NCBI RefSeq assembly: GCF_037892425.1
Contig: NZ_JBBKTT010000001.1
Coordinates: forward strand, 1,054,001 to 1,118,000
Reading direction: 5' to 3'
Source of the DNA: Lacibacter sp. H375
Lineage (GTDB): Bacteria > Bacteroidota > Bacteroidia > Chitinophagales > Chitinophagaceae
Length of the DNA: 64,000 nucleotides
Below the pieces are notes generated by a model. The model searched no databases. It was not told the origin of the DNA and saw nothing but the letters and a program-made list of their open reading frames with translations. Made by a program: the position numbers and the translations under genes. Positions 44,439 to 46,004 of the stretch are shown here, piece by piece; position 1 is the first letter of the stretch; every line of letters begins with the position of its first letter.

Positions 44439-44915
44439 TCAGGCAAGATCCTGTACCACTTCCACTTTGCGGTTAAAGCTTTCATCAAGCGAAATAAAGG
44501 TTTCTGTACGTTCGATCCCCTTAATTTTCTGCAACGCATCGTGCAACACAAAACGAAGTTGATTGATATCCTTACACACCACTTCAATAAACATACTATA
44601 GTTACCGGTTGTATAATTGAGGCGAACGATCTCCGGTATCTTGCGAAGGTCTTTTGCAACCGTATCGTACAACGAGCTTTTCTCCAGGAATATGCCCACA
44701 AAGGCTGTGATATCATAACCCAGAGCTTTCAGATCAACATTGAGTTTAGTGCCTTTCACAATACCATGTTCCTGCAGTTTTTTAATGCGCACATGAATGG
44801 TACCGCCTGAAACAAAGAGTTTCTTTCCCAAATCGGCATAGGAGATCTGAGCATCTTCCATCATTTCAGAAATGATCTGCAGGTCCAGTTTGTCAAGATT
44901 CAATTTAGCACCCAT
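44439..44915 (-). CDS. Lrp/AsnC-family transcriptional regulator
   Basis: The 158-residue protein has an N-terminal winged helix (LDKLDLQIISEMMEDAQISYADLGKKL, then GTIHVRIKKL) and a C-terminal RAM ligand domain (ALGYDITAFVGIFLEK). It may sense an amino acid and bind DNA as an octamer. It is divergent from the tRNA-like RNAs starting at 45061. Whether it acts on them is unknown. Length is normal. Confidence 0.92.
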   Translation of the reverse strand: MGAKLNLDKLDLQIISEMMEDAQISYADLGKKLFVSGGTIHVRIKKLQEHGIVKGTKLNVDLKALGYDITAFVGIFLEKSSLYDTVAKDLRKIPEIVRLNYTTGNYSMFIEVVCKDINQLRFVLHDALQKIKGIERTETFISLDESFNRKVEVVQDLA

Positions 44916-44998
44916 ATTTCAAGTGTGTTTTAAAATATTTTCAATATTAAGAATTGTATTTTGAATATCATCGAAAGTTTTAAAATTTTTGTTGAAAA

Positions 44999-45055
44999 TT
45001 GTTCAAAGAATAGCCAATATGCTTTAATATTGCACTGTAATCGTTCTTTGAACAA
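44999..45055. repeat. 12-bp perfect inverted repeat upstream of the first tRNA-like RNA
   Basis: TTGTTCAAAGAA (44999-45010) is repeated in inverted form as TTCTTTGAACAA (45044-45055). A possible -7 box TATGCTTT (45018-45025) lies between, and the RNA begins at 45061. The arms could be a paired operator in the lrp/RNA divergent promoter. Confidence 0.5.
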
Positions 45056-45060
45056 CATAC

Positions 45061-45177
45061 TGTGGAGTGATGAAATTTTCGGCAGACATGCCCTCTCGTC
45101 TCGGGGGTGGAGATAACAGGATAAAGTCCGGCAACGGAACTAACTGCTCCGTGGAGGTTCGATCCCTCCCTCTACAG
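45061..45177 (+). ncRNA. tRNA-shaped RNA with 45-nt variable arm (copy 1)
   Basis: A complete type-II tRNA cloverleaf can be drawn. The acceptor stem is TGTGGAG/CTCTACA, U8 is present, and the D-stem is ATG/CAT with the Leu-type D-loop GGCAGA. The anticodon stem is CCCTC/GGGGG with loop TCGTCTC. The T-arm is GGAGG-TTCGATC-CCTCC, and base 73 is G; CCA is not encoded. The variable arm is far too long: GGAG/CTCC (45109-45112 with 45147-45150), CAG/CTG, then a TCCG-GCAA-CGGA hairpin capped by a GNRA loop. The anticodon loop lacks U33 and a purine at 37, so decoding is unlikely. The fold elements are direct; function is unknown. Confidence 0.6.
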
Positions 45178-45255
45178 CTCAAACAAAACCCAAGATACAA
45201 AGTCCGTTGAATATTGGATTTTGGACATTGGATTTTCAATCAGTTCTTTTTACAC

Positions 45256-45427
45256 TGTGGGGTGATGAAATTTTTGGCAGACATGCCCTCTTGTCTCGGG
45301 GGTGGAGATAACAGGATAAATATAGCATAGAGCCGTTTGGTTAGCAATAACCATTCGACCAGGGTCGACCACTGAACTTTGTGCTACAACTAACTGCTCC
45401 GTGGAGGTTCGATCCCTCCCCCTACAG
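45256..45427 (+). ncRNA. tRNA-shaped RNA with about 100-nt variable arm (copy 2)
   Basis: This is a second copy of the element at 45061. The acceptor stem differs by a compensatory pair (TGTGGGG/CCCTACA), while the D-arm, anticodon stem CCCTC/GGGGG, T-arm and G73 are kept. The anticodon loop is TTGTCTC, which would read GUC, but base 37 is not a purine. The ends of the insert are the same as in copy 1 (GGAGATAACAGGATAAA and AACTAACTGCTCC). The middle is replaced by a larger branched part: stem TAGCA/TGCTA, inner hairpin GGTTA-GCAA-TAACC with the same GNRA loop, and CGAC/GTCG. It ends at 45427. Confidence 0.6.
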
Positions 45428-46004
45428 CTTATTTCGGTTGCTTTCCATACCGATCAACTCTGGTCCGTACAGATTTTTCTCATGCTTTTTTTACGATTGC
45501 CTTTTGTTTTTACAAAGGGCTCTTTCGTTTTATAGACTTTCCCGATTTGTTTTATTCCAATTTTACTTCACACATAACCGCTTTCATTACAGTTGGTTTT
45601 TATCAACAATCTTGTAATATCCAACACATTTTGTCAATCGTTTGTAGCGCCCTTTAGCACGACGTTCTTGCAGATGAATCCTTTTTGCATGCGGATAAAC
45701 ACGAACTACTTTTATGCGTCTACACTACTACGTTAGTGCTTTTTTGGGTTGTTTGTCGCCTGAAACGCAATGGCAGTAGGCTAAAGGGAAAATTTATCAA
45801 TTAGCAAAGGTTTTTTTTACCAATTATGCGAAACCGTTAGTTGAAAACTCTGTATCCACAGCGAAACCCTTGCTGGGCGTGCATTTGCTGTTGTTTTTCA
45901 CAGTCTGTGCATATATATGACTTTGGAAGTATTGTTTGAAAAGATATTTTCGTATTCCTTGCATTAGCAAGCAGTTCTTTTACATACATAAACTTGTATA
46001 AAGC
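45428..46004. other. Gene-poor intergenic stretch
   Basis: About 580 bp with no convincing ORF, tRNA or rRNA. Open frames here are short, lack ribosome sites and have poor amino acid composition. The only clear signals are the 21-bp motif at 45641-45661 shared with 24899-24919, and T-rich tracts at 45470-45600. It may hold further leader or promoter sequence for the elements at 46005-46660. Confidence 0.5.
45641..45661. repeat. Intergenic 21-bp motif, second copy
   Basis: Matches 24899-24919 at 18 of 21 positions, including TTTGTA at the start and CTTTAGCACG at the end, on the same strand. The function is unknown. Confidence 0.4.

Follow-up and report, generated by a model that had tools for sequence, protein, structure and literature searches.

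The closest described systems in which asparagine is made on an RNA use tRNA-Asn itself. In Deinococcus, Thermus and Bdellovibrio, according to the consulted sections of the source, a non-discriminating AspRS loads aspartate onto this tRNA and GatCAB then carries out an amidation that depends on the U1-A72 pair, in hosts that also have AsnRS and GlnRS (PMC4206432). In the same sections, this 2014 survey reports AsnRS, GlnRS and GatCAB together with the absence of an asparagine synthetase in 18 genera, some of them Bacteroidetes, and takes asparagine synthesis there to occur on tRNA-Asn (PMC4206432). Bacterial aspartate identity relies on G73, G34, U35, C36 and C38 as strong elements and on G2-C71 as a minor one; U1-A72, a determinant supported also in PMC4206432, makes Asp-tRNA open to amidation, which G1-C72 and U20a prevent, and G1-C72 in addition aids placement of the acceptor end by AspRS (PMC9976931, in the excerpts consulted from both sources).

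In the window, that is, the whole 64,000-nucleotide stretch of Lacibacter sp. H375 DNA that was analysed, two tandem tRNA-shaped RNAs lie on the forward strand: copy 1, with a short insert, runs from U1 to C74 at 45061..45178, and copy 2, with a long insert, occupies 45256..45428. Re-reading of the letters bore out the full tRNA frame described in the first-pass annotation, with acceptor stems UGUGGAG/CUCUACA (copy 1) and UGUGGGG/CCCUACA (copy 2) that differ by a compensatory change, and with U8, G18G19, the T-loop TTCGATC and G73 in both copies. The elbow (U8, G18G19, T54T55C56, A58) is intact across the family described below; the extraction pattern itself prescribed the letters of the T-loop, and copies located with a covariance model (CM) have them too, except one with TTCAA. 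The anticodon arms, positioned by hand count, are CCCTC-TCGTCTC-GGGGG in copy 1 (45091..45107, forward strand; loop 45096-45102, with G34 U35 C36 U37 C38) and CCCTC-TTGTCTC-GGGGG in copy 2 (45286..45302, forward strand; loop 45291-45297). Position 33 is C in copy 1 and U in copy 2, and position 37 is U in both, so that neither loop has the purine, just as first noted. The variable arms are indeed oversized and unequal, with 43 nt (copy 1) and 98 nt (copy 2) between the anticodon-stem TG and the T arm; that of copy 1 (45109..45150, forward strand) combines GGAG/CTCC and CAG/CTG pairings, an internal loop GATAAA/CTAA and a GCAA-capped hairpin.

Neither an Rfam family nor an ordinary tRNA annotation, either of which would have counted against the first-pass annotation, covers these coordinates. 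ARAGORN reported 0 tRNAs and no tmRNA in the whole 64-kb window, where Rfam at gathering thresholds matched 0 families, RF00005 and tmRNA included; a permissive Rfam search (up to E=5) of positions 44950-45550 gave weak unrelated matches, none tRNA-like, and among the 44 tRNA matches of an Rfam search of the Lacibacter genome none falls on copy 1 or copy 2. Folding energy was rejected as sole proof, since it does not separate the RNA from shuffles (z -1.17 and -1.57 for the two copies, unimpressive alone), and the ORFs on the reverse strand of the RNA were set aside as translation artefacts. Separately, the motif GTTCTT, a candidate processing signal, occurs at window positions 45043-45048 and 45243-45248 and recurs in the 5' leaders of many copies, tandem firsts as well as seconds, in some of them 7-16 nt before U1.

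Relatives are numerous. When 59 genomes, that of Lacibacter among them, were searched at the DNA level, 34 gave matches, and a 15-base pattern found at least 119 stretches in a public genome collection, 63 of which, among those listed, hold an accepted copy; the named records with accepted copies include Chitinophagaceae, Saprospiraceae, Cyclobacterium, Algoriphagus, Hymenobacter, Fulvivirga and Marinoscillum, among others. From all loci, 119 copies of 109-211 nt were drawn, 114 of them distinct; the extraction skipped six pattern matches, among which L079 and L127 are visible copies. In the set A1 of 28 diverse cores (33 were selected, and L097, L103, L106, L109 and L149 were omitted, the script having cut them elsewhere), 98.8% of the cells pair in the tRNA fold and the two insert helices, and 79 double-change cells were counted against a shuffle mean of 18.4 (0 of 500 shuffles as high) and against 1-14 when the partners are slid. 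The paired insert ends proposed at first sight covary in relatives, and the long insert has covarying helices of its own, with double changes in 11 of 15 predicted pairs (set A3, 28 inserts picked from the 68 that contain GACCAC). Given this pairing and these double changes over relatives, the fold is not a chance one, and the RNA family is real, being conserved, covarying and tRNA-like. Long copies, as judged from these GACCAC-selected inserts, also contain the insert motifs AYAAA...GGRTYGACCAC...CTAA within covarying stems (e.g. window 45304-45402), which are replaced or lost in other lineages.

Searched with the covariance model R1, 392 genomes of the phylum yielded the family in 43, with one to seven copies per genome; these genomes fall in seven family groups, of which f67, with three of the 43, belongs to another class. 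The copies in the window match R1 at 110.8 bits (copy 1, G000:C1:1099061-1099178) and 88.9 bits (copy 2, G000:C1:1099259-1099428), the latter match beginning 3 bases inside copy 2. The RNA-positive genomes comprise 40 with an R1 match of at least 75 bits plus G407, G127 and G146, which score lower and are members by sequence, and RNA-negative denotes genomes with no R1 match of at least 75 bits; low matches were sorted by length among the matches listed, so that members can be missed, and R1 is not fully sensitive, as G452, with a visible copy at locus L066, gave 0 matches. The raw tally by E-value (383 of 392 genomes) was rejected as a member count because matches of ~83-88 nt at <=~61 bits resemble ordinary tRNA-Leu, an example from the Lacibacter genome being tRNA-Leu(GAG) at 55.7 bits. 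This is a widespread RNA family which no Rfam model matches in the window, and a search confined to the open-licence literature did not find it in print. Y RNAs contain tRNA-like domains, and a bacterial Y RNA, or some other tRNA mimic bound by Ro, was accordingly considered, but the Ro (TROVE) domain is encoded in just 5 of the 43 RNA-positive genomes and Rfam has no match in the window, so this disfavoured identification was rejected and retains hardly any credibility.

The oversized variable arm is dispensable. Among 61 genomes of the Hymenobacter-type genus of G127 (taken to be Hymenobacter on the strength of named loci whose copies are similar), the long form occurs in 44 and a 77-nt form in 11; no genome has both, and 6 have neither, one of these (G471) with a decayed-looking copy adjoining an AsnC-like gene. 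The 77-nt form, the sequence of which was read in all 11 genomes, has a variable region of 5 nt and is followed by a terminator-like hairpin (by eye); it retains the acceptor UGU...ACA-G-C and the loop CTATCTC on a wholly different stem (CTAGC/GCTAG), has U33 and is called tRNA-Asp(atc) by ARAGORN. As one lineage lacks the arm, this element is not central, and the emphasis that the first-pass annotation placed on it is unsupported.

What hardly varies is a set of identity positions. These were tallied in 114 distinct pattern-found copies, a set biased by a pattern that fixed G73 C74, the T-loop and some letters of the anticodon arm, and in 66 distinct CM-located copies, a less biased check that shares some copies with the former; the A2 tally dropped four rows (two pieces of a real but split copy in L273, a fragment in L264 and an ordinary tRNA in L287). 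U1, G2, U3, U35, C36, C38, A70, C71, A72, G73 and C74 are each present in 66/66 CM-located copies, and G34 in 61/66 (T 2, C 2, A 1 in the others); among the pattern-found copies, U35, C36, C38, G2, U3, A70, C71 and A72 are each found in 114/114, U1 in 113/114 and G34 in 108/114. Position 34 takes all four bases over both sets, the copies without G34 including the Hymenobacter-type copies inspected, and the anticodon stem varies as a helix, with eight forms in the 66 copies, one of which has a U-U mismatch. In the D loop, C20 A20a occurs in 28/28 cores of A1 (in the numbering of this analysis), so the antideterminant U20a is absent. The family hence carries the AspRS identity set, with G34 in most copies, and the complete GatCAB Asp-substrate set (U1-A72, no G1-C72, no U20a), a pattern that is consistent with the recognition by an aminoacylating enzyme suggested at the outset. 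A pairing of the loop letters UCUC with some other RNA was considered as well.

Two other synthetases were considered and rejected. LeuRS needs A73, and the family has G73 in 66/66 copies. A SerRS substrate (G73, C72, G2-C71, C11-G24, G30-C40 and a large variable region) is incompatible with A72 in 66/66 and 114/114 copies, and the long arm is missing from the 77-nt form; U11-A24 occurs in 28/28 cores of A1 and C11-G24 in some other lineages (e.g. L199, L220, L226).

The elongator features U33 and purine 37 are not kept in the family: position 33 is T 75, C 33, G 6 (n=114) or T 53, G 7, C 3, A 3 (n=66), and position 37 is T 111, C 2, G 1 (n=114) or T 57, C 5, G 4 (n=66). Because U33 and purine 37 have been lost across the family, decoding by this RNA is unlikely, which is also what was first concluded from the two copies. 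That the RNA is a functional tRNA-Asp used in elongation, or a recoding tRNA, whose variable arm is simply unusual would fit the anticodon, which is mostly GUC, and the U33 and ARAGORN name of the 77-nt form, but we regard it as very improbable: the host already has a normal tRNA-Asp(GTC), positions 33 and 34 each take all four bases, position 37 is U, C or G, and a decoding RNA with U1-A72 would run the risk of delivering asparagine to aspartate codons.

The family appears, judging by its letters, to descend from tRNA-Leu, with leucine identity lost through G73. It resembles the host tRNA-Leu(GAG) and bacterial type II tRNA-Leu in the D-loop AAATTGG.AGA, T44-G45, CGT before the T stem, the T arm and the long arm, and differs from tRNA-Leu in having G73 for A73, U1-A72 for G1-C72, a replaced anticodon loop and a variable stretch that ranges from 5 to 129 nt. 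Of the host tRNA-Leu genes, four were inspected, all with A73, three with G1-C72 and one with C1-G72; the host tRNA-Asp has G1-C72 and the host tRNA-Asn U1-A72. With bacterial tRNA-Asp the RNA shares G73, G2-C71, U35 C36 C38 and mostly G34, whereas it has U1-A72 instead of G1-C72, the Leu-like body and no reliable U33 or purine 37. Besides normal single copies, the Lacibacter genome has unusual AT-rich tRNAs (Asp(atc), Gln, His, Lys, Arg, Asn, Ser) packed closely together at L009:986-1744 (G000:C1:about 1644367-1645125), an arrangement that looks like a mobile-element tRNA array.

Divergent from the RNA, on the reverse strand at 44439..44915, the window encodes a 158-aa regulator of the Lrp/AsnC family. 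Over 146 aa it shares 39.7% identity with E. coli AsnC, E. coli AsnC (2cg4, E 2e-31) is its nearest solved structure, and its best NCBIfam model is AsnC with 161.8 bits, against 57 bits for Lrp, which was rejected as its identity; given that the AsnC equivalog cut-off of 227 is not reached, we call it AsnC-like. The AsnC-like gene adjoins the RNA divergently in 76 of 93 loci (a set that includes near-identical ones, e.g. L060 and L113), at identities down to 47% and with gaps of 38-215 nt, measured to the end of the gene's stop-to-stop frame. Of the 17 loci unscored as adjacent, three have <=224 nt upstream and L114 has the gene in an overlong frame; an AsnC-like gene is still encoded in 11/11 of the genomes without adjacency that were checked, and both Fulvivirga genomes do carry an RNA copy alongside it. 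The 11 stretches with the 77-nt form, two of which are short on one side, showed no AsnC-like gene. The families of other neighbouring genes are much less frequent, none recurring in more than 19 loci. The ORF family near the RNA in 19 loci, mostly close downstream (e.g. L048:1646-2575, L062:3280-4095), may by eye be the tRNA m7G methyltransferase TrmB. In three Cyclobacteriaceae genomes (L251, L252, L255), a terminator-like hairpin lies beside the AsnC-like gene and the RNA copies lie elsewhere. Of 23 loci from RNA-negative genomes that have an AsnC-like homolog, 1 (in G108) has it divergent from a gene for an AsnB-like protein.

The Bacteroidota promoter consensus is TAnnTTTG, and the window has a promoter-like site with one mismatch to it, TTG-N23-TAATATTG, at 44999..45032 on the forward strand. 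Of 92 loci, 33 have the exact consensus ahead of their first copy (shuffle mean 3.4), and with one mismatch, the kind to which the window site belongs, the number is 73 (shuffle mean 39.4); terminator-like hairpins follow several copies (by eye). The divergent AsnC-like gene, the separate promoter-like site, the terminator-like hairpins and the conserved insert motifs are all features that speak for the main rival to the reading we prefer, namely an RNA under AsnC control that regulates asparagine metabolism, can sense or titrate charging by AspRS and GatCAB and is not an asparagine carrier; the GcvA-GcvB pair offers a comparison for such pairing of a regulator with an RNA. However, the insert is dispensable, yet the identity positions of the acceptor end and the anticodon loop hardly vary, and the distribution of the partner enzymes adds a further objection.

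Searches for gatB, asnS, glnS and asnB covered 80 genomes: the 43 RNA-positive ones, 32 RNA-negative ones of the same class (two of the family of Lacibacter) and 5 RNA-negative ones of other classes, the RNA-negative genomes being a hand-chosen subset. GatB is encoded in 43/43 RNA-positive genomes, from which GatCAB was judged to be encoded in all of them, in 1/32 RNA-negative genomes of the same class and in 5/5 of the other classes. AsnRS is above the cut-off in 80/80 genomes and GlnRS in 36/43 RNA-positive, 31/32 same-class and 2/5 other-class RNA-negative genomes. With both AsnRS and GlnRS present in 36 RNA-positive genomes, GatCAB has no usual job there; in the 7/43 that lack GlnRS it has another job, and G096, the sole same-class RNA-negative genome with gatB, also lacks GlnRS, so that GatCAB has its usual job there. 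Among the same-class genomes that have gatB, AsnRS and GlnRS, the RNA is present in 36/36, and it is absent in 31/31 without gatB. The pattern holds within family groups: in f22, gatB is found in 8 RNA-positive and not in 3 RNA-negative genomes, and E. coli-type AsnB switches there too; in f1, gatB is found in 13 RNA-positive and not in 2 RNA-negative genomes. GatB and GlnRS are both present in the RNA-negative genomes G087 and G202, which belong to other classes. In Hymenobacter-type genomes, two shortened AsnRS-like ORFs (G221:C2:595933-596853, 346 aa; G419:C1:2542190-2542744, 195 aa) may represent an AsnRS paralog reduced to its catalytic part, which might be an AsnA-like synthetase.

For E. 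coli-type AsnB the pattern is the opposite: by hit shape it is found in 0/43 RNA-positive genomes and 26/32 same-class RNA-negative ones, with 6/32 lacking it. The 26 assignments comprise 18 confirmed by motif, seven made by hit shape (G162, G185, G356, G425, G086, G349, G392) and G108, where the NCBIfam score, on a fragment, is just under the cut-off. The motif for E. coli-type AsnB is present in 18/18 fetched split-type proteins and in 0/63 fetched proteins of RNA-positive genomes; six further RNA-positive matches over the cut-off, one each in G034, G440, G422, G146, G241 and G131, are contiguous and were not fetched. When six RNA-positive and four RNA-negative proteins were scored with the NCBIfam asnB model, two of the RNA-negative ones exceeded the cut-off and a third reached 464 of 499 bits, and the six RNA-positive ones scored 233-312 bits. 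The general cut-off of TIGR01536 'asparagine synthase' is passed by at least one protein in 37/43 RNA-positive genomes and by none in 6/43; asparagine synthetases of the B. subtilis kind resemble these proteins. Fisher values of 2.8e-20 and 9e-15 are descriptive only, as they ignore shared ancestry and the genomes are not independent.

In this sample, the distributions of the RNA and of E. coli-type AsnB are complementary. A mere regulator leaves unexplained why E. coli-type AsnB is absent exactly where the RNA and gatB occur, and we rate the regulatory RNA unlikely, though above the other alternatives. Of the tRNA-like regulatory or structural RNA proposed in the first-pass annotation, the part that stands, through covariation, is the conserved tRNA-like family; a regulatory or structural role is now less likely in light of the gatB co-occurrence, the AsnC-like linkage and the complementary distribution of AsnB.

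The reading that we consider reasonably probable is that the RNA is a dedicated, non-decoding carrier derived from tRNA-Leu, on which AspRS and GatCAB make asparagine. AspRS would recognise the GUC-type loop (G34 U35 C36 C38) together with G73 and load aspartate, and GatCAB would recognise U1-A72 and amidate Asp-RNA to Asn-RNA. The Asn-RNA would be kept off the ribosome, and no asparagine would appear at aspartate codons, because the loop has lost U33 and purine 37 and a bulky arm is present in most copies. The asparagine would then be freed for AsnRS or other uses, and the neighbouring AsnC-like regulator would adjust the amount of RNA made to the asparagine level. We infer each of these steps, from aspartylation, amidation and exclusion from the ribosome to asparagine release and regulation by the AsnC-like protein. 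With slightly less assurance, we lean toward a broader view in which a dedicated recyclable RNA cofactor for the conversion of aspartate to asparagine, with an AsnC-like switch, replaces the E. coli-type synthetase in several Bacteroidota lineages.

In support of the carrier, the AspRS set and U1-A72 occur together, the acceptor end and the loop letters UCUC persist even in the 77-nt form, gatB co-occurs with the RNA, the AsnC-like gene is linked to it and E. coli-type AsnB is missing. Against it, G34, a strong AspRS determinant, is replaced in 6/114 and 5/66 copies, and G1-C72, the AspRS acceptor-end aid, is absent from the RNA. Another asparagine route is possible in the RNA-positive genomes with TIGR01536 proteins, which may be synthetases of the B. 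subtilis kind. Furthermore, given that the host tRNA-Asn has U1-A72, a non-discriminating AspRS could make asparagine on tRNA-Asn, as in Bdellovibrio. Asparagine synthesis on ordinary tRNA-Asn by such an AspRS and GatCAB, with the RNA as an accessory such as a transamidosome scaffold, draws further strength from the route described in Bdellovibrio, Deinococcus and Thermus and from the enzyme set reported in Bacteroidetes, both in the sections consulted (PMC4206432), but we judge it improbable: the RNA has C36, the letter of aspartate and not of asparagine, as well as C38, G73 and U1-A72, a complete substrate set that is superfluous for a scaffold and counts against an accessory role.

If the carrier reading holds, these bacteria maintain an RNA whose sole task is to bear an amino acid while it is being made, which would account for the presence of GatCAB alongside AsnRS and GlnRS in Bacteroidota and could explain the asparagine supply of a large group of bacteria without the E. 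coli-type asparagine synthetase; it would also be a natural case of tRNA identity switched by a handful of bases.

The arrangement at this locus recalls E. coli asnC-asnA, where an AsnC-type regulator is likewise divergent from an asparagine-synthesis gene; the partner of the divergent AsnC-like gene is an RNA here and a synthetase there. Staphylococcal tRNA-Gly is a dedicated non-proteinogenic tRNA for the cell wall and, like the proposed carrier, a tRNA-derived RNA that serves outside translation as an aminoacyl donor, but it involves another amino acid and other enzymes, has no large insert and undergoes no amidation. The pathway itself is known on tRNA-Asn in other bacteria, and the dedicated RNA is the new claim: in the route of Deinococcus, Thermus and Bdellovibrio, as far as the consulted sections describe it, the substrate is the decoding tRNA-Asn, whereas here it would be a separate RNA with an Asp-type loop on a tRNA-Leu-like body.
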